The notes beneath the pieces are model-generated. The model saw only the letters and a program-made list of their open reading frames with translations, had not been told where the DNA came from and searched no databases. From a virus, in the IMG/VR virus record IMGVR_UViG_3300028025_006676, positions 1-23,182 of that record: a stretch of DNA of 23,182 nucleotides; one strand, 5' to 3'. The position numbers were made by a program, and so were the translations under genes. Positions 6,334 through 23,182 of the stretch are shown here, in pieces. How positions within the stretch are numbered: the first letter of the stretch is position 1; each line of letters begins with the position of its first letter.

Positions 6334-6603
6334 CTATTCTAATTCTTCAATTTCGACCACTAATTGGTCCGGTCCTTTTATGACTCTGTGCCAAACAAAT
6401 TTGGGTATGTGAATTTGACCGGCCTTTGACAATTTGACCGGCAATTCGTTTTCCATTTGAAACGACCATCCTCCGTCTTCGATAACTGTGACGTTTCTAT
6501 CCTTAAGGTCTTGATGCCATTTAAGTTCTTCAACTTCAACATCGGTAGTAAATGTCCTAATCAGTTTACCGTTTTTTTCAATTTGCTCAAACGGAAAATC
6601 CAT
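6334..6603 (-). CDS. Small cupin-fold protein (89 aa)
   Basis: An 89-residue cupin-like protein. It has the strand WHQD (H30, D32), the central turn EDGGWSFQM, then LSKAGQIHIPKFVWHRVIKG with H65 and H72, and an acidic last strand VVEIEELE. This matches a minimal cupin barrel with a possible metal site made by H30, H65 and H72, although the E of the classic first motif is not clear. I start it at ATG 6603, overlapping the upstream TAA as TAATG; a TTG at 6609 is the longer alternative. Small cupins of this kind occur in several phages with unknown substrates. It lies between a phage-type basic protein and an unknown protein. Confidence 0.65.
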   Translation of the reverse strand: MDFPFEQIEKNGKLIRTFTTDVEVEELKWHQDLKDRNVTVIEDGGWSFQMENELPVKLSKAGQIHIPKFVWHRVIKGPDQLVVEIEELE

Positions 6604-7226
6604 TACCAAGAATTTGATGACGATAAACCTAATTGTTTGGCGTATCTACCAACATTACAGCTCCAATACCCTGCGGTGGTTCTATCTTTCTTTTGGTCGC
6701 ATTTGTGTCTTGCTCTGAATGACTTGGCAGCACCTTTGTTAGCATTTTTAACTCTCAAGTTAGGATCACCAAAAGATACTTTTTTAATACCTCCACTTTT
6801 TGATTTTACATAAACCGCAAATTTTTTCGGCCCGCCTGAAGTTCTGAATGGTTTATTCAACTTAACATTCTTACCTCTATGTTTTGCCTCTTCCAAAACA
6901 TCCTCTTCCTCTTCATCCTCGTAGATGAATGGAGCATCAAGATAAATCAATTTACCTTTGATTGATACTTTTTTACCCAAATCTGATTCAACCATCAAAG
7001 TATCTTCTTCGTTAAGGTCAATCTTACCTTCCTCCCACAATTTTCTAACTTCATTTACCAAATCAAAATAGCTTTCAGAATATGCTCGGAAAATGTTATT
7101 AGTCAAAGTCAATTCATTATCTACATGATATTTCAATGCTTCTGACACTTCAACAGATTCTTTAATAATTAAAGATTTGTTCAAATGTTCTTCTAATGTT
7201 TCTTTGATAAGTTCTCTTAAATCCAT
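6603..7226 (-). CDS. Phage protein with conserved basic C-terminal domain (207 aa)
   Basis: The N-terminus MDLRELIKETLEEHLNKS is helical and has several (L/I)xE sites. The middle is acidic (YEDEEEEDVLEEA at 102-114). The last 75 residues form a basic domain: GGPKKFAVYVKSKSGGIKKV, SFGDPNLRVK, SFRARHKC, and GYWSCNVGRY. That RARHxC...YWSC pattern recurs in many phage proteins, sometimes attached to prohead protease or scaffold genes. C176 and C190 with the adjacent H174 might bind metal. Its function is unknown; a structural or nucleic-acid-binding role is likely. It has its own candidate promoter (GTATTTAT, 16 bases upstream), so it may be expressed separately from the envelope genes before it. 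Confidence 0.7.
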   Translation of the reverse strand: MDLRELIKETLEEHLNKSLIIKESVEVSEALKYHVDNELTLTNNIFRAYSESYFDLVNEVRKLWEEGKIDLNEEDTLMVESDLGKKVSIKGKLIYLDAPFIYEDEEEEDVLEEAKHRGKNVKLNKPFRTSGGPKKFAVYVKSKSGGIKKVSFGDPNLRVKNANKGAAKSFRARHKCDQKKDRTTAGYWSCNVGRYAKQLGLSSSNSW

Positions 7227-7252: not shown

Positions 7253-7870
7253 TTACTCTCTATTAAATTTTAACTTCCAATACACTCCTCCTGTTACATA
7301 TGGGGTAAATTTACCTGTAACACCATCAAATGTTCTATTTGCCACTCCTCCACCAAGTTGGAATATTTTATCATCTTTTGTTTTCAATAATATACTAGTT
7401 CCAAGTGAGTTGACCCAATCTTGATGGCTCAAGGCTCCGTTCAATCCCACATAAACTTGGTTTCTAACTTTTGGTGGTTCAGGTGCTGGTTCCCTAACAA
7501 TCTTGGGTTTTACATTTGCTGTAAACTTTCTTGAAACAACGTTATTTTGTGAAATGGTGTCAAACAAGTATATGACCCCCTGATTATTACTCAACATTAT
7601 TGTATCCTGTACGAAATTTTTCAAGTAAAAATTTTTGAGAATAAATGAGGTGTCGACTAGTGGAGTTGGTGCGGGCACTTCAACAATTTTTTCTACTTCA
7701 ACCTCGTATGGTACTTCGACCTCCACTTCATAAATAACCTCCTGAGGTATTGTATCATAGACCAATTTTTCTTCTATTTCGATTTGTGGAGGAACGAAAA
7801 ATTGTAAGAATATTATTATACCCACCATTAGGAGTATTACTATGTGTCTGATGTCAAATATTTTTTTCAT
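7253..7870 (-). CDS. Membrane-anchored periplasmic protein (205 aa)
   Basis: A single N-terminal hydrophobic segment at about 9-27 (IVILLMVGIIIFLQFF) after a basic start (MKKIFDIRH) predicts an inner-membrane anchor with the rest in the periplasm. It is followed by a Val/Glu-rich stretch of alternating residues (YEVEVEVPYEVEVEKIVEVP, about 47-67), a middle domain, a Pro-rich linker (REPAPEPPK), and a C-terminal part of alternating hydrophobic strands (VYVGLNGALS, PYVTGGVYWKLKF) that looks barrel-like. One possibility is a spanin-like linker from inner membrane to outer membrane; another is a periplasmic partner of the barrel protein encoded just upstream. Neither is proven. It starts four bases after the barrel gene. 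Confidence 0.65.
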   Translation of the reverse strand: MKKIFDIRHIVILLMVGIIIFLQFFVPPQIEIEEKLVYDTIPQEVIYEVEVEVPYEVEVEKIVEVPAPTPLVDTSFILKNFYLKNFVQDTIMLSNNQGVIYLFDTISQNNVVSRKFTANVKPKIVREPAPEPPKVRNQVYVGLNGALSHQDWVNSLGTSILLKTKDDKIFQLGGGVANRTFDGVTGKFTPYVTGGVYWKLKFNRE

Positions 7871-7874
7871 ATCG

Positions 7875-9143
7875 TTATAACATTAATCTTGATCCAATCA
7901 AGAAATTACTAAGTATTGGAGAACCTGATGCTCCCAATGCTCTGTAGTTTAGGCTTAATCCGAATCGTTTACTTATTTTATAGTCAAATGATGATCCGAC
8001 TAAGAAGGAAAATTGTCTATTTACTGTTGACTCACCTGTTTTGGGGTTATATGAAATTGGTGAGTTCATTAAAAATACTTGAGGAGATAATGTGAGTTTG
8101 GTATTTACAACATAAGGTTTTGTCCAAAATACAACCGCTGAGGTCGCAAGAGATACGTTGAATACTCTTTTAATTGTTCTTGTTTCAGTATTAACTTCAG
8201 TATCTTTTAACAATAAAGTTATTAAACCAACGTTATATCCGTATGTCCCATATTTTTCACTTGGTTTAATATTTGTGTATCCAAGTAATCCCATATAAGT
8301 TCCATCTAAGTAAGCCGCGGTGAATGAATAAGAGTGGATTTGACTTAATTTACCTTGTTGAAAATTCATTTTGGTATATCCTCCACCCAAAGCAAATTGG
8401 TCTAATGTACTCCAAATCATGGCGTTTACCCCCCAAGTTTCATTCCCTGCTAATGATGATTGACTAACACCAAAGGAAGCAATAGCACTGTATTTCAAAT
8501 CGGGACCTTGTACGGTTGTCAAGTCTGAGGCAACCAACATTGGGTTTACTGGCCCAACTTTCTTTTTATCACCTTTCCCTTTGCCATCTGAATTATCATC
8601 TTCACTTTCTCCCGAATCTCCACCTTCTGAACCACCTTCTTCAGAACTACCCTCAGAACTCGACTCACTTGATCCTGATTCACTACTACTTGAAGATGAT
8701 GAGGATTCTCCTGAAGAAGATTGAGATGATGTACTAGAAGAACTTGATGAAGATGCCGCAGTTGAGGAGGCTGATGAAGATGCCGCGGATGATGCTGCAG
8801 ATGAGGCAGCAGATGAGGCAGCTGACGACGCTGCGTTGGCGGCGGCTTGTGATACAGTTTGTGTGACAGTTTGGGTTACTACCGCATTTGCGGGACACGG
8901 AGTTGAAAAAATTCCATTAATCCAAATGGTTACTTCCCCTGAGGTGAATTGTTGATAAGTGAATACTTTGGATTTGTTTCTGACTATAACTAAAACACCA
9001 GTATTAGATTGTATGGGTATAGATACCACATAAGTTTTTGAATCACAGGGGTCAATGTATGTTTGTGTAACAACTTGCCCCTGTGATTCGTGGTAAATTA
9101 ATACCATGAATAATAACATTAAAAATATTTTCAAACTTTTCAA
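7875..9143 (-). CDS. Predicted outer-membrane beta-barrel with Ser/Ala linker (422 aa)
   Basis: A signal peptide (1-23, ending SQGQ) leads to a small domain at about 24-98 containing two Cys (C33, C83), then a Ser/Ala low-complexity linker (about 99-160), an acidic Gly/Ser/Glu stretch (160-185) and a basic KGKGDKKK turn. Residues from about 198 to 422 show the alternating-strand pattern and aromatic ends of an outer-membrane barrel (KYSAIASFGVSQ, SFTAAYLDGTYMGLLGY, RFGLSLNYRALGASG, FLIGSRLML). A phage-coded outer-membrane protein is unusual. The start is TTG 9143; an ATG at 9150 is out of frame by one base, so an indel in the AAAA run is possible. The next in-frame ATG (9119) would lack the basic signal-peptide start. 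It follows the CsgG-like gene by 22 bases. Confidence 0.7.
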   Translation of the reverse strand: MKSLKIFLMLLFMVLIYHESQGQVVTQTYIDPCDSKTYVVSIPIQSNTGVLVIVRNKSKVFTYQQFTSGEVTIWINGIFSTPCPANAVVTQTVTQTVSQAAANAASSAASSAASSAASSAASSSASSTAASSSSSSSTSSQSSSGESSSSSSSSESGSSESSSEGSSEEGGSEGGDSGESEDDNSDGKGKGDKKKVGPVNPMLVASDLTTVQGPDLKYSAIASFGVSQSSLAGNETWGVNAMIWSTLDQFALGGGYTKMNFQQGKLSQIHSYSFTAAYLDGTYMGLLGYTNIKPSEKYGTYGYNVGLITLLLKDTEVNTETRTIKRVFNVSLATSAVVFWTKPYVVNTKLTLSPQVFLMNSPISYNPKTGESTVNRQFSFLVGSSFDYKISKRFGLSLNYRALGASGSPILSNFLIGSRLML

Positions 9144-9165
9144 TTTTCATCGGTTTCCAAATATT

Positions 9166-9888
9166 TTATTCTGTGAATATTCCTTTTTTAATCATTCTAT
9201 CTAAGATTCTGGCACAAGCAATGTCAAGTGCTTTTTTTGTCGCGATAGATATTGTAGATTGATTAAACTTAACTGGATCGACTGTTGCGTCAGAAAGAAG
9301 GGTTAATTCTCTTGTGGTTACAGCTTCTCCAAGTCCTGATGCTCCAAATACAACACCAGTTTCCGCATTTGTAAATCTAACCTGAAGACCTATACGGGTT
9401 ACCATCATATTTTTCACACCATCTTTAAGATTTACAGTTTCATCTTCTGAAACGGAGTAATCATAACATTCAATGGTTACAAAATATTCTGCCAAATTGA
9501 TTTTACCAAAACCATCTAATTGATTTTCAGAAATTCCTGCCTGAGATGCTTGGAATTGCTTAACCATTCGGTTTTTAATTTCCGTCTTATCTTCAGTAAA
9601 TTTGAATCTATTAAGATTCTCAAGATATTCCATAGAAATGTTCGCAACACCTAATCCAACTCGTTTTTCCTTGAGTTCAGGATACATCTCATACATTTCA
9701 TCAGACATACCTGCCTTCAAGATTTGAATTGGAATTTGTTTTCCTTCATAATCCATAAATTGACTTATGTCAATTGCGGTTTCGAACGATGCCTTGTATT
9801 GCTCAGTTTTTGTACTTCCTACAGTTTGAGAAAACGCCGATATTTGTACTATTAGTGCAAATATCGACGATAAAATAAATTTTTTCAT
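9166..9888 (-). CDS. CsgG-like curli assembly/transport family protein (240 aa)
   Basis: The product has a signal peptide (MKKFILSSIFALIVQISAFSQ) and a body resembling the CsgG family, which forms the outer-membrane pore of curli (type VIII) secretion. Supporting segments are VGLGVANISMEYLENL, INLAEYFVTIECYDYS, the strand pair RIGLQVRFTNAETGVVFGAS, and the C-terminal helix FNQSTISIATKKALDIACAR. CsgG-like genes are known in cyanophages and pelagiphages, with unclear roles. Unlike E. coli CsgG there is no lipobox cysteine after the signal peptide. I use ATG 9888; a TTG at 9900 adds four residues. It sits between a small membrane protein and the barrel protein. Family call moderate to good; pore formation not shown. 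Confidence 0.65.
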   Translation of the reverse strand: MKKFILSSIFALIVQISAFSQTVGSTKTEQYKASFETAIDISQFMDYEGKQIPIQILKAGMSDEMYEMYPELKEKRVGLGVANISMEYLENLNRFKFTEDKTEIKNRMVKQFQASQAGISENQLDGFGKINLAEYFVTIECYDYSVSEDETVNLKDGVKNMMVTRIGLQVRFTNAETGVVFGASGLGEAVTTRELTLLSDATVDPVKFNQSTISIATKKALDIACARILDRMIKKGIFTE

Positions 9889-9916
9889 ATTAAACCTCAA
9901 TTGTATTACGTGTTTA

Positions 9917-10078
9917 TTAAGGTCTCTTTGGCCAAGCCCAACCCTTTTTCTTACCTCTCAACATCAAGTAAGTTGCGCCTCCGAAGAAGATTAACAAATA
10001 CAATGATGGTGAATAAAATACAAACATGGATACCATCAACAATGTGAGGAATACCATAAAACTTAAAAATTGTTCCAT
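9917..10078 (-). CDS. Small hydrophobic membrane protein (53 aa)
   Basis: A 53-residue protein, MEQFLSFMVFLTLLMVSMFV followed by FYSPSLYLLIFFGGATYLML and the basic tail RGKKKGWAWPKRP. It has two closely spaced hydrophobic segments and a strongly basic end, so a two-span inner-membrane hairpin with cytoplasmic C-terminus is likely. The size and topology would suit a holin or lysis regulator, but the same is true of many small phage proteins. Its ATG lies two bases after the stop of the upstream gene, and it precedes the CsgG-like gene by 28 bases. Confidence 0.6.
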   Translation of the reverse strand: MEQFLSFMVFLTLLMVSMFVFYSPSLYLLIFFGGATYLMLRGKKKGWAWPKRP

Positions 10079-10080
10079 AT

Positions 10081-10404
10081 TTACCATTTTGGAGCGGTTT
10101 CTTTGAACTCGTCCCCTTCTTTTTTATTAGGTTTATCCGTCGCTGCGGGTTGTGACACTGGTTGACTTGATTTTTCTCTGATGATTACAGTTTTGTCACC
10201 ACCAGATTGTTGTTGTTGATTGTTATTGTTGATGATAATTGGAGTTTGTTGTTGAACAGGTGCTGCAACTTCTTCATCACTGCCAATAAATTTATTTGTA
10301 ATAACTCCTCCGGCACCCAACACTGCCGTAGTTAACAATCCGATAATTGTCTTTTTTAATCCTGACCAAGTTCCGTCGTTATGGTCTTCTGTTTCTTCGC
10401 TCAT
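10081..10404 (-). CDS. Single-span protein with Gln/Asn-rich region (107 aa)
   Basis: An acidic N-terminus (MSEETEDHNDG) precedes a hydrophobic segment at about 16-42 (LKKTIIGLLTTAVLGAGGV), then a Gln/Asn-rich stretch (IIINNNNQQQQ, about 56-66) and a basic, Pro-rich tail. It looks like a membrane-anchored protein with a disordered domain. The function is unknown. With the neighbouring 53-residue two-span protein it forms a pair of small membrane proteins, a layout also seen for holin/antiholin pairs, but there is no family evidence. The leader (ACTAAATAATAATACC) lacks both promoter motifs, so it is probably read through from upstream. Confidence 0.6.
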   Translation of the reverse strand: MSEETEDHNDGTWSGLKKTIIGLLTTAVLGAGGVITNKFIGSDEEVAAPVQQQTPIIINNNNQQQQSGGDKTVIIREKSSQPVSQPAATDKPNKKEGDEFKETAPKW

Positions 10405-10429
10405 GGTATTATTATTTAGTTTATTTATT

Positions 10430-10792
10430 TTATTTAATAATTATTGGGTATTTTATATCTTTCCCCGAAATGTCCAAAAAAATCAAGTCATAATACCCTT
10501 TTGGTTCTTCTGTTAAATTATATACCCTTTTTGTTGTTGTGTCAACTGCCGTGAAGCCTTCTTTTTTAATTGGTGTTTCTTGACCAAAAGGTATTATTTG
10601 TACTGAATATTTTGCTCCGACAGTTGTTTCGAACTCTATAATCACTACGTTTTCATTCTGAAAAACAGATTTTATGTTTGTTGAAGTTGATTTAGTCCCT
10701 AAATTAATTTCCGGTATCTCATCATAGTAAGGGTTAAAACACCCTTGTAAGAAGAGAACTGAGAAAGTTAGTATTGATAATATTTTTTTCAT
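10430..10792 (-). CDS. Lipoprotein (120 aa)
   Basis: A type II signal peptide with lipobox LQGC (C18 predicted to be lipidated) is followed by a domain of about 100 residues with beta-sandwich character: VVIIEFETTVGAKYSVQIIP, a central turn, TKRVYNLTE, and YYDLIFLDISGKDIKYPIII. It would be attached to the inner face or surface of the outer membrane. In Bacteroidota, surface lipoproteins often act as docking points for secreted proteins. Its place one base after the large secreted cohesin-like protein gene and before the CsgG-like gene suggests it is part of that envelope module. No specific family was recognised. Confidence 0.7.
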   Translation of the reverse strand: MKKILSILTFSVLFLQGCFNPYYDEIPEINLGTKSTSTNIKSVFQNENVVIIEFETTVGAKYSVQIIPFGQETPIKKEGFTAVDTTTKRVYNLTEEPKGYYDLIFLDISGKDIKYPIIIK

Positions 10793-10793
10793 T

Positions 10794-12899
10794 TTAGAAA
10801 TTATTATATCCCGTTAATTTTATTTGAGTTGTATTCAATTTTATTCCTAATTGAGAACCCTTGATTGTGTTAGCATCCATAGTGGAAGATACTTTGATGG
10901 AAGTTAAAATATCAACTCCATTACCAATTGTTGAAAATTTCAATTTGAACGGAATTGCAGTTCCAGTTACTGGAGTTTTTTCATTTGGGTCTATTCCACC
11001 AAATTTGACTTTACCATCAACAGAATTAACAAACAAGTACCATGTATTTGGAACATTTGGAGAAAACTCCTCAAACTTTATCTTCGTTGGGTCGTAATCA
11101 AATTCAAATTGTAGTCCTGTAACTGGATTTCCATTTGTCGTTACACTTATAGGAATTTCTATATTATTCGATGTTACAGTCAAATTAGATAGATTAACAT
11201 CTATTGATGGAACATTATTTGGAGTATTAATGAATGATTCTGTCGCCATAGTTTTGAATGTTGTGTTCGACTTCAAACTATTTGGGGCTCTACTAACTAC
11301 AGATGCGACTCCATTATTACTAACAACAACTTGTGATGAATGTGAACGATTCACATCTCCCCACAAAAGATATTTCAAGTCTACAACCGTGTTAGTTCCT
11401 ATTGTTCCTGTTTTCACATAAACTTTTGGATAATCAAAATCTTTCCAATTCGTTGTGGTGATTGCTCCCCAAGAATTTGATGGTGAGTCATTAAATGTGA
11501 ATTCCGCCCTTAACCCAAAGTCCGGACCTCCATTGATATTTCTTATGTATGGAGTGTAAGTTGATGTACCTATTGAAGATATACCAGATGGTATTCTAAA
11601 TGTCGCCCAAGTTGCGTCCTTCGAAACAAATTCTACAGGTCCAACATACAAATCAAATAATTGGAGTGACTTTATTTTTTCAGGTGTATTAGTCGCGTCG
11701 AATTCTCTCATATCAACTAGTATTCTGGACACATTTTGAGAATAATGATTTGGTGTAATAATCCCCCATTCTACTTGTCCTGCGATTGTTGTAGCGTCAG
11801 TTGAGATCCATGTTGGAACATTCATATATCCACCACTTCCTGTAGTATATCCATTTGGAAGAGTCACCAATTGGTCAATACCCACAACTTGTGATAATAA
11901 TTTTGGTAAATCTCCTCCATCAATTGTTTTGTTTCTGTTGATGTCCGCTGCGTACAGAGATTGTCCTGTATTGATTGTTTGTCCTTTACTACCATCCAAT
12001 CCCATAGTTGTAAACTCTCCTTGAGCAGATGTGAAGTCCGATATTGTGATGGCATTATTGTAAATCGCATTTAATTTATCCATTTCGTGCATCACAGAAA
12101 CTTCATAAACTTTATTCTCAGATAATAACGCTTGATTAATATCGACATTACCGTTCGATAACACATCAAACATTTGTCCGGTATTTGTTACTGTATCCTT
12201 AAAGGAAATTTTTAATTTTGACAGATTGAGTAAATTAGTATTCACATCGACTTTAGCGGTAATTAATTTTCCCGTATTTTGATTCATGATTACTTCAGTT
12301 GATAATGGTGAATCCATTATCGTTGGAACCTGAGACCCTTGTCCATTCCATCCTGCGACAAAGTTTAATCTAACAGGATTGAAAGCATTTGATGTAGACG
12401 CCGCCTTTAATCTAAACCTTACAATTATTATTTGAGAAAAAGCGTTAAAGGGCATTGGGGAATTCGTTGCCCATGTTAAAGATGCTCGTATAATTGCGTT
12501 AGAACTAGCCACATTATATGAATACGATAAACCTGCCGTATATCTTGTAGTTCCGTTAGTATTAGTTGTGTTTCCAGCATAACCATATCCAGGATAGTTT
12601 TGCCAAGATAATTGTATATTTGAACCTGTAGGGAACACTCCTCCGTTTCCACCTGTGCCAGTATGATTGATTGAAACTATTTCAAAGTTTGTTTGGTCGT
12701 ATTGAAAGTCAAATAGTAATTGTCTGGTTACCGCGTCTCCATTACCATTTGCGTGAACCATAACGTCAAATTGGTCTCCTCTATCAATAACTCCCCCGCC
12801 TATATCGGTTAAAACTCTCGTATCAGGAAATTTGAATCTTATCTGCCCGAAAGAGTTAAAGGACAATAATAAAAGTGTTATTATTAGTATTTTTTTCAT
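10794..12899 (-). CDS. Large secreted protein with cohesin-like and dockerin-like domains (701 aa)
   Basis: A signal peptide (1-19, ending SFGQ) is followed by a cohesin-like beta-sandwich at about 24-185 (QFDVMVHANG, LLFDFQYDQTNFEIVSI, IIIVRFRLKA). A second cohesin-like domain occupies the end at about 565-690 (SNLTVTSNNIEIPISV, GLQFEFDYDPTKIKFEEFSP, AIPFKLKF). At 319-330, DINRNKTIDGGD fits the dockerin calcium loop (D1, N3, N5, D9, D12), with a degenerate copy GDVNRSHSS at 514-522. Cohesin-dockerin pairs form calcium-dependent protein assemblies outside cells. There is no type IX secretion C-terminal domain, so export by the neighbouring CsgG-like system is possible. It starts directly after the 164-residue gene (TAA then ATG). 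Domain calls are from hand reading. Confidence 0.7.
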   Translation of the reverse strand: MKKILIITLLLLSFNSFGQIRFKFPDTRVLTDIGGGVIDRGDQFDVMVHANGNGDAVTRQLLFDFQYDQTNFEIVSINHTGTGGNGGVFPTGSNIQLSWQNYPGYGYAGNTTNTNGTTRYTAGLSYSYNVASSNAIIRASLTWATNSPMPFNAFSQIIIVRFRLKAASTSNAFNPVRLNFVAGWNGQGSQVPTIMDSPLSTEVIMNQNTGKLITAKVDVNTNLLNLSKLKISFKDTVTNTGQMFDVLSNGNVDINQALLSENKVYEVSVMHEMDKLNAIYNNAITISDFTSAQGEFTTMGLDGSKGQTINTGQSLYAADINRNKTIDGGDLPKLLSQVVGIDQLVTLPNGYTTGSGGYMNVPTWISTDATTIAGQVEWGIITPNHYSQNVSRILVDMREFDATNTPEKIKSLQLFDLYVGPVEFVSKDATWATFRIPSGISSIGTSTYTPYIRNINGGPDFGLRAEFTFNDSPSNSWGAITTTNWKDFDYPKVYVKTGTIGTNTVVDLKYLLWGDVNRSHSSQVVVSNNGVASVVSRAPNSLKSNTTFKTMATESFINTPNNVPSIDVNLSNLTVTSNNIEIPISVTTNGNPVTGLQFEFDYDPTKIKFEEFSPNVPNTWYLFVNSVDGKVKFGGIDPNEKTPVTGTAIPFKLKFSTIGNGVDILTSIKVSSTMDANTIKGSQLGIKLNTTQIKLTGYNNF

Positions 12900-13394
12900 T
12901 TAATTTGTTTCGAATAGTTTAGACACCAAGACATCGCTCGCCTTTTTCAAGGCATTACTCAAAGATTGTTGATTGAAATTCCCTCCGTTGTCCACAATCA
13001 ATGTTGACATAGAAATTTCAGATGATTCTTCTTCGACAATGACTTCTTTGATTTTTTTTCCATCAACTTTCAAAACTCCTCTAAGACGTATTACAACAGA
13101 TTCGCTGTCTTTGTGAAATACAGAGACATTCGTCTTGGTTTTTAATACATCCAAGTAGACAATTTCAATAGATAATTTTTGTTTGGAGTCAGGGTTTAGA
13201 TCGAAATTTTTTTCTTGTAAAAATTCCTCTGTGATGTTTCTCACACCGAATTCTAAGTTTCGATTTCCTGCAAGATTTCCCACTTGAATCTTGTTTACAA
13301 CGGATTCAACCCATATTTCATCAGTAAGATTTGTGGTAATGTGAGGCATTATGTATAGCATAACGCCAGCCATAAACAGGGTTAACATTTTCAT
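12900..13394 (-). CDS. CsgG-related secreted protein (164 aa), first gene of envelope block
   Basis: The start MKMLTLFMAGVMLYI gives a signal peptide or short anchor. The rest alternates strands and helices (KIQVGNLAGNR, LSIEIVYLDVLKTKTNVSVF, SVVIRLRGVLKVDGKK) and ends NFNQQSLSNALKKASDVLVS. That last helix parallels FNQSTISIATKKALDIACAR of the 240-residue CsgG-like protein, and the preceding strand and turn layout also agrees, so the two may be distant paralogs or partners in one complex. It also looks somewhat like small LptE-type or CsgG-associated proteins. It heads the leftward operon, with an ATATTTAT element 20 bases upstream, opposite the endolysin gene. Confidence 0.55.
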   Translation of the reverse strand: MKMLTLFMAGVMLYIMPHITTNLTDEIWVESVVNKIQVGNLAGNRNLEFGVRNITEEFLQEKNFDLNPDSKQKLSIEIVYLDVLKTKTNVSVFHKDSESVVIRLRGVLKVDGKKIKEVIVEEESSEISMSTLIVDNGGNFNQQSLSNALKKASDVLVSKLFETN

Positions 13395-13517: not shown

Positions 13518-14345
13518 ATGATACTAAAAGTTGGGTCTAAAGGAGAAGACGTAAAAAAACTCCAAGCAAAATTAGGATTAGGAGCCGATGGTGTATTCGG
13601 TTCTGGTACAGAAGCTGCGGTTAAAAAATGGCAAGCATCTAATGGATTAACCGCTGACGGTATTGTTGGTGAAGGAACATGGTCAAAAATGTTTGGTGAG
13701 AAACAACTTATCACTGAACCTTCAAAACCTATTGTATCTTCAGGTCCTTTGAAATTAGAAAATTTGAAAGGTCATATCCCTGACGCAGTAATTGCTCAGA
13801 TTCCTGAAACTGCGAAAAAATTCAATATCACAAATCCACTTAGATTGGCTCACTTTTTAGCTCAGTGTGGGCACGAGTCAGGAGGGTTCAAAGCAATTCA
13901 AGAAAATCTAAACTACTCTGCGGATGGTTTGAAAAAAATATTTCCAAAATATTTTCCAGGAAACTTGGCAGAAGGTTATGCAAGAAACCCTGAAAAAATT
14001 GCATCAAAAGTTTATGGAAGTAGAATGGGTAATGGAGATGAAACAACAAAAGAAGGTTTCAAGTTTAGAGGTCGTGGATATATCCAATTGACTGGTAAAG
14101 ACAACTATACAAAATTTGGTAAATTTATCGGTGAAGACACAGTTGCTAACCCTGATTTAGTTGCAACAAAATATCCGTTGGCATCAGCGGCATTCTTCTT
14201 TGATTCAAACAAATTATGGGAAATTTGTGATAGAGGAGCGGATGATGCGACAGTAACGGCAGTAACCAAAAGAGTTAATGGTGGTACAATCGGATTACCT
14301 GATAGAATCAAACATTTCAAAGAATATTTCGCACTTTTGAAATAA
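13518..14345 (+). CDS. Endolysin: peptidoglycan-binding domain plus GH19 glycosidase
   Basis: A 275-residue cell-wall hydrolase for release of progeny. Residues 3-60 are a PG_binding_1 repeat (LKVGSKGEDVKKLQAKLGL, GVFGSGTEAAVKKWQ, DGIVGEGTW). After a short linker, about 85-275 is a GH19 chitinase/lysozyme-type domain with AQCGHESGGF (catalytic acid E120), the FRGRGYIQLTGKDNY signature at 183-197, and VNGG near N254. It would cut the glycan strands of peptidoglycan. There is no signal peptide, so a holin or membrane-disrupting protein is needed; the holin-like gene at 16977-17228 is the best candidate here. A strong terminator follows, and an ATATTTAT element lies upstream. Confidence 0.92.
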   Translation: MILKVGSKGEDVKKLQAKLGLGADGVFGSGTEAAVKKWQASNGLTADGIVGEGTWSKMFGEKQLITEPSKPIVSSGPLKLENLKGHIPDAVIAQIPETAKKFNITNPLRLAHFLAQCGHESGGFKAIQENLNYSADGLKKIFPKYFPGNLAEGYARNPEKIASKVYGSRMGNGDETTKEGFKFRGRGYIQLTGKDNYTKFGKFIGEDTVANPDLVATKYPLASAAFFFDSNKLWEICDRGADDATVTAVTKRVNGGTIGLPDRIKHFKEYFALLK

Positions 14346-16976: not shown

Positions 16977-17228
16977 TTACTCTTCAATTTGGTCTGACTT
17001 TCCTTTGTTAATCCATTTGTCGACTGACCCGATTCCGAAAGAACCAAGAACTAACCATAGGAAGGCGTTAAAGATAAATTCGTTTATCACTAGGTCTTTA
17101 CCTAAAGTTCCTGTAACAATATCCGCAATAGCGAATCCTGTCATCATCACAAACGCCATAAACCCTACGACGCTTTTTTCATTGATTGTGTTGTTGTCAT
17201 TGAACAACTGAGATAAGAATTTTTTCAT
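16977..17228 (-). CDS. Holin-like two-span membrane protein (83 aa)
   Basis: An 83-residue protein with a short charged N-terminus (MKKFLSQLFNDNNTINEKS), two hydrophobic segments at about 20-38 (VVGFMAFVMMTGFAIADIV) and 50-68 (EFIFNAFLWLVLGSFGIGS), and a charged tail (KWINKGKSDQIEE). This layout fits class II-like holins, which make the inner-membrane lesions that release or activate endolysin. It lies next to the tail-fibre genes, a usual place for holins, and shares the ATATTTATTG element with the endolysin. A function as some other small membrane protein cannot be excluded. Strong terminator downstream; inverted repeat in the leader. Confidence 0.6.
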   Translation of the reverse strand: MKKFLSQLFNDNNTINEKSVVGFMAFVMMTGFAIADIVTGTLGKDLVINEFIFNAFLWLVLGSFGIGSVDKWINKGKSDQIEE

Positions 17229-17282: not shown

Positions 17283-20200
17283 TCAAAAAGGAGTATCTGT
17301 AATTTGTAAAACTACATTTTCAGATGCTAATATTGGTGCCCCCTCAAACGTAAATTGTAATATGTCAGGTAACACAACCGAACCAAAACCATTAAAAACG
17401 CCATTTATAAAAAATTGCCAATCGATAGAACCAGTACCTGTAACATAAACACTTGGAAATGCGTTAGTTGTACCATGTATTGCTCTCAAAGTTTGTCCTT
17501 GATTTATCGGGAAACTTTGAGTTGCTCCGGTCAATGGAACTAATCCCAAATCGTCCTGGAATGCCTGAATTTCACATATTGTCGATCCATTGGTAAATGT
17601 TAAGTTATAGTTTGGTGTTACACTTGGAGTATTAGTTGGGGTAAGAGTATTAGTTGGGGTCGGTGTTACCGTACTTGTTACTGTCGGAGTCGGTGTTGGA
17701 GTTGGACACACATCAATTGAGGTACACTCAGCTTGTCCTGATCCATTATCTGTGATTGTATAAACAGTCCCACCACTAACAGATTGGAAGTAGAATGTTG
17801 TTGCCAATGTGGATGTTAAAGTTTGAAGTTCAGATATAGTATATGGATCAGTTCCCGCGTTATTTTGATAAATCAACTCATTAATATCAATTACCCCTTG
17901 AACATATATTGTTGTTGTTGGAGAAGTTCCATAACATACCGTGTCAGGTGAAGTAGAAACTTTATATAATCCTCCGTCTAACGGGTCTGTAGGAGTTGGA
18001 GATGGTGTTAAGGTTGAAGTTTGAGTTGTAGTTTGAGTAGGAGTGTTAGTGGGTGTTTCAGTTGGTGTTGAAGACGGTGTAGCAGTATTAGTTGGTGTTG
18101 GAGTTGGCGTAATAGATGGATTATTATTCACTGCGCTAATATAAACAGTTTGACCTGAAACCCAATTTGTTGAAGCAGATTGAATTATTACCGCATTTCC
18201 TGTTCCCGCAGTAAGACCAGGTACACTAATATTTGTACCGAACACAAATCCTGTTCCTGGCACACCTGGAGGTGTTCCTGTATTACCTGACCAATATTTG
18301 AATGCTTGCGTATCTCCAGAGTAAATTGCGGTACTTCCTGTTTGAGTCATTGTAATTGTAATACTTTGACCTGTAAATTGTGAGAAATAACTTGTTCTAT
18401 CTATACCGTCAGAGTCAATTGAATTGAAGAAAATTCCTCTTTGATTTAAGGACAATTGATTTGGATTTGTGGTACCTGTTTGAGCAGGGGCAGTAACATT
18501 AATAATTGTATTACCCGTTGTTGGGTAATTGTATGGTAATTGAATTAGATTGAATGAATATCCTGTTACAGGTTCAGGTGTAACACTTGGTGTTGGAGTA
18601 TTCGTTACACTTGGTGTAGGTGTTGGAGTTTCTGTATTAGTTGGTGTTACAGTATTAGTTGGTGTTACAGGAGGTGTCTCAATTGTCATTATTAGTGTAC
18701 TTGAGGCGGCCCCTGAACCCCATGCCCATGTGTAAGTTCCAGGTGTAAGTCCAAGACCATCGATTGTTTCTCCGTCGTATATTGTTGATCCACTAATAAC
18801 TGTTCCTGACACATATCCTTGAGGAACTAATACTTCTCTTGGACCACTTAGTCCTTCAGTTTGGACAACACCAAAAACACTACCTAAACTTGAAGGAGTC
18901 TTCGGAACGCTACCACCAGGACCAAAACTAGTAGGGAATGTGGTAAATGACGAACCACTATAAGTTGTGGCATTTGATGTTGAACCTACTATAAATTGTG
19001 CAAAATTTGGGTTAAATCCGGCATTAGCTGGAGATATGTTCCCACTGACTGTCAAACTTGTAAGATTAAATGATCCTGAACCTGACCATACAACATCAGG
19101 TCCTACTTGTGAAACTGATATATTAAAATTGCCAGGTACTCCCGATGTTGGAGTTGGTGTTGGTGTTTCAGTATTCGTAGGAGTAGGAGTTTGTGTTTCA
19201 GTTGGTGTTTGAGTATTAGTCACACTTGGTGTTGGTGTAAGAGTTTCTGTTGAAGTTGGTGTTGGAGTGACTGAACCTGCTCCGACTGTCATTATGATTG
19301 AACTTAAAGTTGCTCCTGATCCCCAACTCCAAGTATATGTTCCTGGTGTTGCTCCTAAAGTTGCTAATGTTGTTGAATTAAATGTTGTTGTTCCACTGAT
19401 GAATGAATTAGATGTATATCCTGATGGAACAAATAGTTGGTTATTTGATACTGCGAAAGTAACACCAAAGAAGTCACCTGTACCTGAATCACCAAGTGTT
19501 TGTCCACCTGTACCAAAATTGGCTGGTGAGTTAAATGTTGAACCTGTGTAAAGCCTACTATTGAATGGACCAGGACCAGCAAGTCCACATCCAAATTGAG
19601 AAACTTGCGGTACTATACTTGAACCTCTAAAGAATGGTTGTACATTAGTCAACGAAGTTAAATTCATAGTTCCCGCACCTGACAATACAACATCACCACC
19701 TACTTCCAATAAAGTCATATTAACCACAGAACCTACTGAAGGTGTTCCTGTTGGAGTTGGTGTATTAGTTGGTGTGCTTGTAGTTGTTGGTGTAGGAGTT
19801 ACTAAAGATGCCTCACACGCCGCACAACTAACATAGAAAAGAAGTGGATTTGAACCGTCAGTTGGAGTTGTCTCGGTCTTTTCAACAATTCTATAACATC
19901 CACTTGGTGTTCCACCTGTGAATGTTAAATTGAATACATCACCTGAAATTAAGTTTCCTGACACTAAGTTAGCGACCAAGACATTCAAGTTAGTACATCC
20001 TGAAATTGTGTAAGTTGTAATTTGTGCGTCAAGACAATCCGCACAATTAGGATATGATGATGTTGGGTTACTTCCATCGGCAGGTATTGCGTCGATTTTA
20101 TTAATAATTGTATAACATTCAGATGCGGTTGAACCTGTAAAATCTAAATAGAATGTATCATTAGGAGCAAGATTTGGAGTCAACAAATTAGCAACAATCA

Positions 20201-21158
20201 CGTTTGAACTACTACATCCTGAGATGGTATAAGTAGTAATTTCACTTAAATCAGTAGGTGTTGGAGATTGTGTTAGTGTTGGTGTAGGTGTACTTGTCGG
20301 TGTTTCATTTGGCGTTTCTGTATTAGTAGGTGTTGGAGTAGGAGTATTAGTCGGTGTTTCACTTGGAGTGTTAGTTGGCGTTTCCGTATTTGTTGGAGTG
20401 TTTGCCGGTGTCTCAGTTGGAGTGTTAGTTGGCGTTTCCGTATTTGTTGGAGTGTTTGCCGGTGTCTCAGTTGGAGTATTAGTTGGTGTTTCACTAGGAG
20501 TATTAGAAGGTGTTTCAGTATTGGTTGGTGTAGGAGTAGTCGTAACTGATGTTGACGTTGGAGTTGGAGTAGGTTGAGGAGCAGGGTTAACAAACATCAA
20601 ATACTCATCAGTCCCAACTGAAATGTACTCATCATTTTCCGTGATGATAGGGTCTATCAATATTTGTATAATAGGTGTTACGCTTGGTGTTGGAGTGTTG
20701 GTTGGAGTTACTGTAGGAGTAACAGTATTACTTGGAGTAGGAGTAACAGTATTACTTGGTGTTGGAGTAGGAGTAACACTACTATAACTTGTATAAAATC
20801 CGTTCGCATTCAACCATATAACAGCATCATCGGCATTTGCAAATGGTGGTTGACCATTTTTGGCTCCAACATAATTCGCTAAATTTAAGAATGCCGCTTC
20901 AGTTTTATTTCCCAAAGGTGTTCCCCAAAATCCAACGTAAGCTGTTTCAGTAACTCCTGAAGGAACTGGTTGTCCACCAGGCCTAACATTACCAATAATG
21001 TATCTTAAATCTTCATTAGGACCTCCCCACCATACAACTCCACCATATCTTGCACCGTAAGGTGCTTCAATATTTCCAACAACTAAGTCGTCATATTGTG
21101 TTGTTCCCGATATCGGTGAACCTGTGTCGTTATATGCAAAAGGTCTTGAAAGTGCCAT
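17283..21158 (-). CDS. Large modular tail-fibre/adhesin protein with Thr-Pro linkers (1291 aa)
   Basis: I start this 1291-residue protein at ATG 21158 ([11 protein letters not shown]), because the longer frame runs into the upstream gene. Residues 1-125 are an attachment module shared with the next fibre protein. Then globular domains are strung on Thr-Pro-rich linkers ([11 protein letters not shown]-like): two tandem Cys-containing repeats at about 306-450 (each opening ITTYTISGC and containing DGSNP), two copies of a sandwich domain at about 474-624 and 677-826 (ending [11 protein letters not shown] / [11 protein letters not shown]) that resemble domains of PEP-CTERM exported proteins, another beta-rich domain at about 870-1010, and two C-terminal domains. 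It probably forms part of the tail fibre or baseplate decoration that binds host surface. No chaperone or trimerisation motif was recognised. Confidence 0.75.
20363..20470. repeat. 54-bp perfect tandem duplication in the fibre linker
   Basis: Bases 20363-20416 and 20417-20470 are identical and encode two 18-residue Thr-Pro-rich units in frame. Being exact over 54 bases, the duplication is recent or kept uniform. It is flanked by further, less exact, copies of the same pattern. Confidence 0.9.
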
Positions 21159-21172
21159 TTTTTTGTTTTTAT

Positions 21173-21180
21173 ATAAATAT
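21173..21180 (-). promoter_or_regulatory. ATATTTAT promoter candidate for the large fibre gene
   Basis: Read on the minus strand, ATATTTAT lies in the 23-base gap between two fibre genes, 14 bases before the ATG (leader ATAAAAACAAAAAA). It could give the large fibre gene its own transcript. Confidence 0.4.
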
Positions 21181-21181
21181 G

Positions 21182-21985
21182 TTAAGAGTATTCTTCGGTA
21201 CATGATACTCCTGGCCCGCCACCAAACGCAAGTCCCGCATCTTGTGTTCCTGCTCCTCCTAAACCAGATCTTGCAGTTATTAAAAATCCAACTGTGGTCC
21301 ATGATAAACCATTATATTCTTCTGTACATGATAATTGTGTAAAATAACTACCAAATCCACCAAAAGCAAGTCCAGCGTTTTGTGTTCCCGCACCTCCTAA
21401 ATCCCCTCTTGCGGTTATTAAAGCTCCACCTACGGACCAGGATATTCCATTATATTTTTCGGTGCATGTAAATATAGTAGTAAGGACTCCATTAGTACCA
21501 CCAAAAGCAAGTCCTGCATTTTGTGTTCCCGCTCCTGCTAAACTATATCTTGCGGTTGATAAAGATCCTCCTACGGACCATGATGTTCCGTTATATTCTT
21601 CGGTACAGGACATAATAAAAAATAATTGACCCCCAAAAGTTAAACCGGCATTTTGTGTTCCTGCGCTTCCCGAATCTGCTCTTGAAGTAATTAAAGCCCC
21701 ACCAGCAGACCAACTAGAACCATCATATTCTTCGGTACATGAGACCACTCCTGCGGGTGTTTGTCCACCAAAAGCAAGTCCTGCATGTTGTGATCCTGCT
21801 CCTGCCAAAGCACTTCTTGCATTTATTAAAGCACCACCTGCGGACCATGACGAACCATTATATTCTTCGGTACATGATACTCTAGCGGATGGTACACTAC
21901 CACCAAAAGCAAGTCCAGCATTTTGTGTTCCAGCACCTGCTAAAAGACTTCTTCCAGTTATTAAAGCTCCACCTGCGGACCATGT
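21182..21985. repeat. Six ~135-bp coding repeats (propeller blades)
   Basis: Units of about 132-141 bp carry near-identical blocks, such as the plus-strand text CCACCAAAAGCAAGTCC and TCTTCGGTACATGA. They encode the kelch-like repeats above. Sequence similarity is strong enough to allow recombination between units. Confidence 0.85.
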
Positions 21986-22363
21986 TCGATATGAATTCCA
22001 ATAACCATTATTTGTTAACCAGTTACTTGCTTCAGTTGCATTTGCGAATGGTGGTTGATTATTTAGGGCACCAATATAGTTTGCCAAATTTAAGAATCCC
22101 TCATTAGTTTTATCACCTAATTCTGTTCCCCAAAATCCAACATTAGCAGTTTCGGTTACTCCTGAAGGAACTGGTTGTCCACCAGGTCTGAAATTGCCAA
22201 TGGCATATCTTAAATCTTCATCAGGACCTCCCCACCATGTAACTCCACCATAATTGGCGCCGTAAGGTGCTTCAATATTGCCGACTACTAAATCTCCATA
22301 TTGTGTTGTTCCCGATATCGGTGAACCTGTGTTGTTATATGCGAAAGGTCTTGAAAGTGCCAT
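21182..22363 (-). CDS. Tail-fibre paralog with six kelch-like propeller repeats (393 aa)
   Basis: Residues 1-125 match the N-terminus of the large fibre protein (about 80 percent identical by hand count). From about 128 to the end there are six repeats of 44-47 residues, each beginning WSxGGxLxxxR, continuing GAGTQNAGLAFGG, and ending SCTEEYNG. The W positions are about 128, 173, 218, 262, 309 and 355. This pattern occurs in kelch-like or propeller domains of phage and environmental proteins; six units would make a six-bladed beta propeller that binds glycans or protein at the host surface. The last repeat stops right after CTEEYS, as expected for closure with the first strand. The gene starts at ATG 22363, 39 bases after the discoidin-type gene stop. 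Confidence 0.75.
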   Translation of the reverse strand: MALSRPFAYNNTGSPISGTTQYGDLVVGNIEAPYGANYGGVTWWGGPDEDLRYAIGNFRPGGQPVPSGVTETANVGFWGTELGDKTNEGFLNLANYIGALNNQPPFANATEASNWLTNNGYWNSYRTWSAGGALITGRSLLAGAGTQNAGLAFGGSVPSARVSCTEEYNGSSWSAGGALINARSALAGAGSQHAGLAFGGQTPAGVVSCTEEYDGSSWSAGGALITSRADSGSAGTQNAGLTFGGQLFFIMSCTEEYNGTSWSVGGSLSTARYSLAGAGTQNAGLAFGGTNGVLTTIFTCTEKYNGISWSVGGALITARGDLGGAGTQNAGLAFGGFGSYFTQLSCTEEYNGLSWTTVGFLITARSGLGGAGTQDAGLAFGGGPGVSCTEEYS

Positions 22364-22402
22364 TGTTATTAAATAGTTATAAATTATAAATTATGTGAAA
22401 TT

Positions 22403-23182
22403 TTAATATGTTTGTGCCGTTTGCCACGTATCTCTTGCAACAGTTGCCGTAAAGTTAGAAACAGTAGATAATGTAGTCCATGTTGTTCCGTTATTACTTC
22501 CCGCAATTGTCCAAGTTCTAGGGTCTCTATCATCAAAGTCATTAGCAGTTGCCCATCTATATCCATTAAATGATCTAGCACTACTAAATTGGAATATGAA
22601 GTTAGATACGTTACCATTTGAAACGAAATTCAAATCGACCACTTTTGTAGTCAAATTATTATCTACCAAGTTTGAAGGAGTTTCTCCACTAGGGTTACTA
22701 CCACCTGGATTAGTTACAGTAACACCTGCCATACTTTGATCGACGCCACCAATTTGGAATACAAATTCAGACGCTTGAAGAGCGTTTGCGTTAGGAGGAG
22801 TTACCTTGGTTTGGGTTATTTGCCATCTATAATAAAGATATGCTGGTCTTGTTGGTGTAGGAGTATTAGTTGGCGTTTGTGTATTAGTCGGTGTCTGAGT
22901 TGCAGTAATACTTGGCGTAGGTGTTACAGTATTAGTTGGAGTCGATGTTAAAGTTGTTGTAGGTGTAGGAGTAGTTGTTGGTGTTTGAGTATTAGTCGGA
23001 GTTGGAGTATTAGTTTCTGTTGGGGTTACACTTGGTGTTGGAGTATTAGTTTCTGTTGGGGTTACACTTGGTGTAGGGGTATTAGTTTGTGTTGTAGTTA
23101 CACTCGGTGTTGGAGTGTTAGTTTCTGTTGGGGTTACACTTGGTGTTGGAGTATTAGTTTCTGTTGGGGTTACACTTGGTGT
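22403..23182 (-). CDS. Fibre protein, 3' part: Thr-Pro repeats then F5/8-type (discoidin) domain
   Basis: The frame is open from the window edge to TAA 22403-22405, giving 259 residues of a longer protein; the ATG at 22732 is internal. The first 110 or so residues are Thr-Pro repeats, including five 12-residue units of the [12 protein letters not shown] type. After [10 protein letters not shown], a discoidin-like galactose-binding fold follows: [70 protein letters not shown]. Such domains bind cell-surface sugars. Its beginning, possibly the same [10 protein letters not shown] module as the next two genes, is outside the window. This makes three repeat-rich, host-binding proteins in a row. 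Confidence 0.75.
23001..23180. repeat. Five tandem 36-bp repeats in fibre gene
   Basis: Five units of 36 bp begin at 23001, 23037, 23073, 23109 and 23145. The first, second and fifth are identical; the fourth differs at one base and the third at several. Each encodes twelve in-frame residues ([12 protein letters not shown]-like). The array reaches the end of the window, so its full copy number is unknown. Confidence 0.9.

Follow-up and report, generated by a model that had tools for sequence, protein, structure and literature searches.

The window analyzed here is the whole 23,182-base stretch of the IMG/VR virus record IMGVR_UViG_3300028025_006676, and its subject is a cassette of eight open reading frames (ORFs), A to H, whose products are predicted to act at the cell envelope. 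In the ORF listing of the window, all eight lie on the minus strand, from position 13394 down to 7253, with intergenic gaps of ≤26 bases; the single leftward unit reported in a preliminary description of this DNA is thus present in full. Gene H (12900 to 13394) encodes an exported protein of 164 amino acids (aa) with an N-terminal hydrophobic signal, a short homologue of C. It is followed by G (10794 to 12899), a 701-aa secreted exoprotein with a cohesin-type domain near its C terminus; F (10430 to 10792), a 120-aa lipoprotein with an LQGC lipobox; E (10081 to 10404), 107 aa, with a single membrane anchor, a Q/N-rich linker, and a conserved C-terminal tryptophan; and D (9917 to 10087), a 56-aa small membrane protein. 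Gene C (9166 to 9888) encodes an exported protein of about 240 aa with a predicted CsgG fold and a signal of the signal peptidase I type; its ATG at 9888 is a likelier start than the TTG at 9900, and most relatives begin at that methionine in the alignment. The last two genes are B (7875 to 9143), 422 aa, with a two-cysteine N-terminal domain, a linker rich in Ser/Ala and Lys/Glu, and a predicted C-terminal barrel, and A (7253 to 7870), a 205-aa periplasmic protein anchored at its N terminus.

Profile searches with single sequences named only one of the eight cassette proteins, through a subthreshold cohesin match in G; searches of Pfam, PHROG, NCBIfam, and PDB profiles with the window's C, H, B, E, and F returned nothing useful, and A had no significant Pfam or PHROG match. 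Hydrophobic N-terminal signals were called in 85/85 H, 124/127 G, 114/114 C, and 144/145 B proteins, and a lipobox was present in 56 of 76 F proteins; these calls come from a heuristic on the hydrophobic N-terminal core rather than from SignalP. By the same heuristic, 119 of the 127 G proteins appear to be processed by a signal peptidase I-like route. Signal peptides, anchors, or lipoboxes thus occur across the families and agree with the folds and profiles, in line with the earlier proposal of an exported, envelope-directed cassette.

Relatives of C are encoded by at least 552 IMG/VR contigs in a scan of viral contigs (two scans of narrower scope gave 476 and 113). A single cultured phage species in 50,697 phage records carried one: Flavobacterium phage immuto (host, Flavobacterium sp. 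LMO8), whose C is 51% identical to that of the window. In immuto, the cassette comprises a cohesin-domain protein (gp15), E (gp16), C (gp17), B (gp18), and H (gp19). Directly upstream of this core, at 10527 to 12689 of locus L082, gp13 (annotated as lectin C-type) and gp14 group with the G family, and immuto may accordingly have a larger exoprotein part. In 84,980 prokaryotic species genomes, C was found on two contigs only, one from a Flavobacterium metagenome-assembled genome (MAG) and one from a Bacteroidetes MAG. Both were judged to be phage contigs, so that no host origin of C came to light in these genomes, and C was absent from the 198 other genomes of the Flavobacterium MAG's family (1 of 199 positive, the MAG itself). 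As far as tested, C is therefore a family of phage proteins whose hosts are Bacteroidota. At 326 kb, L003, the closest contig to the window, is in the size range of described freshwater Bacteroidetes phages (293 to 331 kb; PMC9723584).

Profile searches of the relatives' ORFs placed the cassettes in two deeply diverged branches. In clade I, which includes the window, the order is H-G-(second G)-(B-like)-F-(F)-E-small membrane proteins-C-...-B, while clade II, which includes immuto, has G-E-C-(c6)-B-H, where c6 is a small two-helix membrane protein. Both branches share a core of G, E, C, B, and H. Since relatives of C occur on at least 552 contigs and two deep branches preserve the core order, recurrence of the cassette is not due to chance. 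Such synteny had been suggested as a check, and the core order does recur across viral contigs. The eight-part set originally described contracts accordingly: the five-gene core stands, but F belongs to one branch, and A and D are local. A and D were found in 38 and 37 clade I loci, respectively, all close relatives, and in none of the clade II loci. F is restricted to clade I save for a few marginal short matches elsewhere and is often present in two copies. E is recognizable by a short N-terminal segment, one weakly hydrophobic helix, the Q/N-rich linker, and a conserved acidic end with the final Trp. Some relatives carry additional genes inside the block, namely a TonB-dependent-receptor-like protein (Plug, 5.7e-8; OMP_b-brl_3, 2.6e-26) and a lipoprotein of ~398 aa (L066, 12657 to 15131; L050, 8408 to 9601; also L027, L060, and L065). 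Such a receptor pair encoded by a phage might serve as a decoy or in uptake.

The cassette genes are inherited together and have been exchanged between phage lineages. In a comparison set of 25 contigs with a terminase gene (TerL), 24 of which had all genes and several of which were near relatives, the pairwise identities of C, B, and H correlated with one another at 0.82 to 0.85 but with those of TerL at only 0.20 to 0.25. TerL sequences formed two large lineages and one single contig, and each large lineage contained both module types. Contigs G002 (326 kb) and G007 (202 kb), for example, share 31% identity in TerL but 90% in C, 51% in B, and 59% in H, whereas G002 and G005 share 71% in TerL but 55% in C. 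Lineage Y was rejected as a clade on the C tree (approximately unbiased test, P = 1e-31), as was module type I on the TerL tree (P = 2e-8). The C tree implied one change of module type and four of TerL lineage, and the TerL tree the reverse. Because C, B, and H diverge together rather than with TerL, and because the trees reject a shared history, we conclude that the block moves between phage lineages. In single cases TerL may have been transferred rather than the block; the block genes themselves stay together.

Rates of change differ strongly within the block, with C the most conserved member and G the fastest-changing member of the core. C is 85 to 99% identical across clade I. Distant clade I pairs retain 85 to 91% identity in C even though about 44 to 61% of fourfold degenerate sites differ; the same pairs have only 24 to 63% identity in G, 28 to 54% in B, and 42 to 63% in H. 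With about half of the fourfold sites changed, recent transfer alone does not account for the near identity of C, and the retention of identity despite such change indicates purifying selection. The locus set consisted of the best 80 matches, a selection that favors loci with a conserved C, so the top rank of C is partly a matter of sample choice; the contrast within loci is unaffected. Close relatives differ more in G and F, and in L003 and L008 also in E, than they do in H, C, B, and A. In comparisons with L007 and L010, the variability of G falls in its N-terminal half, where bins of 77 to 87% DNA identity lie between stretches of 92 to 98%, as if this half were swapped or diversifying.

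An AlphaFold2 model of C built from 37 sequences (predicted local distance difference test score [pLDDT], 76.5; predicted template modeling score, 0.68) was compared with the PDB by Foldseek. The 18 best matches were all CsgG chains (E = 2.8e-7 to 2.1e-5; template modeling [TM] score, about 0.36 to 0.49), followed by HpaA-type proteins, GNA1162, FlgT, PelC, and LptE. Sequence profiles gave a different picture. The window's C had no match to Pfam CsgG (PF03783) at E ≤ 1, PF03783 was absent from the whole records of three relatives, and a profile comparison of C with the single HTVC008M CsgG sequence detected no relation; as a positive control, HTVC008M CsgG matched PF03783 at E = 4.8e-53. Since the comparison with a CsgG sequence failed, the relation of C to CsgG rests on the predicted fold. 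The signal of C ends in ...ISAFSQ without a cysteine, and a lipobox-like pattern is present in only 10 of 114 family members. In monomer data, the first hairpin segment of C is more charged (0.33) and less aromatic (0.10) than that of CsgG (0.19 and 0.15), and the second comprises 32 to 34 residues, compared with 44 in CsgG. C probably lacks membrane hairpins and is probably not a membrane-spanning pore. The absence of a Pfam CsgG match and of a lipobox, together with hairpin segments that are shorter or more charged, makes a periplasmic or membrane-associated ring likelier than a pore formed by C itself.

C and H are taken as homologous because their profiles align with a probability of 95% (hhalign; E = 3.6e-8; 123 columns). 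This holds only for diverse alignments; with shallow ones, the comparison was weak (16.6%). H occurs in both branches, and matches of its profile in the PDB (PP2A scaffold) were judged spurious. The CsgG-like pair of the preliminary description thus survives by fold for C and by homology to C for H, though not by Pfam. Neither CsgF nor curlin was matched by Pfam in the window's cassette proteins or in the sampled relatives.

B is predicted to be an outer membrane barrel. Its AlphaFold2 model comprises a mixed alpha/beta N-terminal domain (residues 24 to 79), one helix (87 to 124), a disordered linker (112 to 197), and 12 C-terminal strands (202 to 421; pLDDT mostly 75 to 89). The best PDB matches by Foldseek were NanC (3.1e-7), FapF (4.4e-7), and autotransporter barrels; the first match of the B profile in a PDB profile search fell in the low-complexity linker and was judged spurious. 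The barrel proposed earlier for this gene is therefore predicted as well, and structure prediction returned both this fold and the CsgG fold of C, not the absence of either. FapF is a trimer of 12-stranded, plug-gated barrels in which a disordered linker leads to a periplasmic coiled coil (PMC5557850). The two share a 12-stranded barrel preceded by a disordered linker and an N-terminal part in the periplasm, but the match is at the level of fold (TM score, 0.50 to 0.57 to the target), and NanC and autotransporter barrels match too. The likeness seen in the model is one of architecture, not of family, and no fap genes were recognized among the window's cassette genes. Many clade I loci have, between G and F, an extra ORF of ~297 aa (e.g., L035, 6989 to 7876) that the B profile matches but PHROG does not.

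The cohesin domain (PF00963) assigned to G scored 21.8 bits in the window, under the Pfam cutoff of 24.1, but 36.5 to 36.8 bits in relatives, well over it; the earlier claim of a cohesin-type exoprotein is thus supported for relatives and subthreshold for the window itself. A second G protein of clade I contains a C-type lectin domain (Lectin_C). In clade II, G carries a type A sorting domain of the type IX secretion system (TIGR04183) above the cutoff (L164, L133, and L083), a finding that whole records bore out at the G gene, and almost every G protein found in clade II has a matching sorting tail. In the Flavobacterium MAG, whose bin includes one cassette copy, ~19 type IX cargo tails score above the cutoff, and from these we take it that a host type IX system is available. 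F, when compared with the tails of clade II G proteins, gave a probability of 92% (hhalign; E = 7e-7), which suggests that the fold of the lipoprotein is related to the type IX sorting domain. Two points go beyond what the preliminary description contained: the sorting domain found in relatives and the movement of the block as a whole from one phage lineage to another.

Divergent from the cassette, on the plus strand at 13518 to 14345, lies an endolysin gene (peptidoglycan-binding and GH19 domains; PHROG 181, E = 5e-68) that is linked to the core but outside it. Loci of 20 kb had suggested a universal linkage, which whole contigs ruled out. In 19 of 29 long contigs, a member of this endolysin family lay within ≤10 kb of C, compared with 3.9 expected under uniform placement without correction for kinship; in the other 10, the distance was 23 to 48 kb. 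Proximity was seen with both module types. The endolysin link is real but not obligate, and, at 30 kb in immuto, looser than the divergent pair in the window had implied. Small two-helix membrane proteins of families c6, c10, and c49 occur inside or near the block, and in many distant relatives c10 separates E from C; none of these proteins matched a PHROG holin family, and their holin nature is a guess from shape. In the window, a c10 member assigned by tblastn synteny and clustering, holin-like in shape only and with no PHROG match, lies at 16977 to 17228 (minus strand). The downstream neighbor of A (6603 to 7226) belongs by profile match to PHROG 7595, a family of unknown function (E = 2.5e-13), and its synteny with A extends to close relatives. 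From 17283 to 23182 runs a series of large proteins with TPTPTNT-type low-complexity repeats, two of which have a domain in common; these genes look like paralogous fiber or adhesin genes.

We tentatively favor the reading, at somewhat less than even chances, that the cassette is a transferable surface display module with which large Bacteroidota phages remodel the surface of the infected cell. Its products would be exported during infection via the host Sec system. B would form a 12-stranded barrel in the outer membrane, its N-terminal domain and long linker lying in the periplasm; C and H would form CsgG-fold assemblies beneath it, and E would connect the B/C/H assembly to the inner membrane. 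Together, these four proteins would export, anchor, or gate the fast-evolving G at the infected cell's surface. The sorting domain of clade II G would route it through the host's own type IX secretion system; in the window's clade, where G lacks the tail, a comparable place would fall to one or two F lipoproteins of related fold. The likeliest benefit would be a cell surface remodeled or masked against competing phages, since protection of this kind best fits a variable exoprotein combined with a constant machine. Co-inheritance, exchange between lineages, export signals, predicted folds, and the relatives' sorting domain are what the data show; surface location in the window's clade, a C/H/B/E complex, and the benefit are parts that we infer.

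Several points weigh against a surface display module. Location and phenotype are read from sequence and models, and a complex of C, H, B, and E is suggested by co-inheritance only. The type IX tail of clade II would export G without C and B, whose job may therefore differ. The window's own G has no TIGR04183 or PF18962 sorting-domain match and a cohesin score under the cutoff, and the frequent proximity of the endolysin would also suit a role in lysis. A bolder version of the display reading, which we consider doubtful, is that of a phage-specific outer membrane export machine in which a C/H ring, a gated FapF-like barrel (B), and a linker (E) would form a conduit of a kind undescribed in cells, dedicated to a diversifying exoprotein that is coupled to host type IX secretion in one branch and to the cassette's own lipoproteins in the other.

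The endolysin data bear on the possibility that E, H/C, and B bridge or open the outer membrane after the action of holin and endolysin, replacing spanins, with G and F as passengers. The 19 of 29 contigs with a nearby endolysin and the two-helix membrane proteins in or near the block fit such a lysis module, as does a spanin survey proposing outer membrane proteins as o-spanins in spanin-less phages, including Bacteroides and Croceibacter phages (PMC6139136), and a lysis role has been proposed for csgGF of phage Melnitz (PMC9004378). E and F are adjacent, and their topology could fit a two-component spanin, but clade II keeps E without F. The block also lies 23 to 48 kb from the endolysin in 10 of 29 contigs, one of them from immuto, the sole cultured phage; the holin-like proteins have no match among holin families; and lysis would leave the large, variable exoprotein, with its type IX tail or lectin domain, unexplained. 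On balance, we regard a lysis module as unlikely. Somewhat less probable still is that G sticks infected cells to siblings or particles, so that progeny are likelier to meet new hosts, a "sibling capture" that has been proposed for the pelagiphage curli operon (PMC7029224). Adhesion of this kind would suit the Lectin_C and cohesin domains of G relatives and the fold likeness of B to the amyloid exporter FapF and of C to the curli protein CsgG, but Pfam matched no amyloid repeat family in the cassette proteins scanned, and Melnitz, a csgGF carrier, showed no clumping (PMC9004378).

Two further explanations seem to us very improbable. Outer membrane proteins of the cassette could aid nutrient uptake by the infected cell on behalf of the phage, as the receptor-like protein and lipoprotein inside the block of some relatives might suggest, but this receptor occurs in a minority of loci, and uptake would leave the type IX-tailed G and the conserved C/H pair unexplained. 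We give marginally less credence to tail or head decorations of the virion with incidentally hydrophobic N termini. The block does lie near PTP-rich fiber-like genes in the window, yet signal peptides and lipoboxes across families, an outer membrane barrel, and a type IX sorting domain would be unexpected in virion parts, and movement of the block is independent of TerL.

Descriptions of lytic phages usually center on replication, virion, and lysis genes. Here, a whole outer membrane set is conserved and exchanged between lineages whose terminases are ~30% identical, and it contains a near-frozen C beside a fast-changing G. Such a pattern suggests that the surface of infected cells is under strong selection in these phages, which are widespread in freshwater habitats. 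Should it be confirmed, surface display by the cassette would provide a concrete system for host surface remodeling by large Bacteroidota phages, possibly via host type IX secretion. The cultured phage immuto, on Flavobacterium sp. LMO8, makes the cassette experimentally tractable now.

The preliminary description held that no such phage system had been described. In the literature searched, mostly without subscription papers, this gene combination was indeed not found, but there are precedents for parts of it. As in spanins, an envelope-bridging topology is possible and an endolysin is often near; unlike in phage lambda, no i-/o-spanin pair was recognized, and the cassette core includes a cohesin or lectin exoprotein. 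Pelagiphages and the OM43 phage Melnitz encode CsgG and CsgF, for which a part in uptake, sibling capture, or lysis timing has been proposed (PMC7029224, PMC9004378). Their curli operons (HTVC008M gp14 to gp18; Melnitz csgGF) are similar to the cassette in combining a phage-borne CsgG-fold protein with further exported proteins without a known host counterpart. The HTVC008M operon differs in having a true CsgG, CsgF, and a curlin-repeat/PA14 protein, whereas the window's cassette lacks CsgF and has a separate barrel, a CsgG-like pair, E, and the cohesin-type G; the csgF-csgG order with a curlin-type gene, seen when HTVC008M gp14 to gp18 were scanned for comparison, has no counterpart in it. 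C shares a predicted fold with CsgG, whose chains are its top Foldseek matches, but the TM scores are ≤0.5, and PelC, LptE, and other ring or lipoprotein folds match too. Curli subunit genes have been stated to be lacking in these phages (PMC7029224, PMC9004378), in contrast to HTVC008M gp18, in which we found curlin repeats (PF07012, 5.2e-8) in three stretches together with PA14 (L165, where 9560 to 11960 spans gp17 and gp18; gp17 matches FecR). The cryoconite phage "Cryophage" encodes type IX cargo and, like the cassette's relatives, has phage genes with a type A sorting domain (PMC7468147). There, these are single variable cargo genes, whereas here the tail is carried, outside the window's branch, by the G protein of a co-inherited five-gene core.

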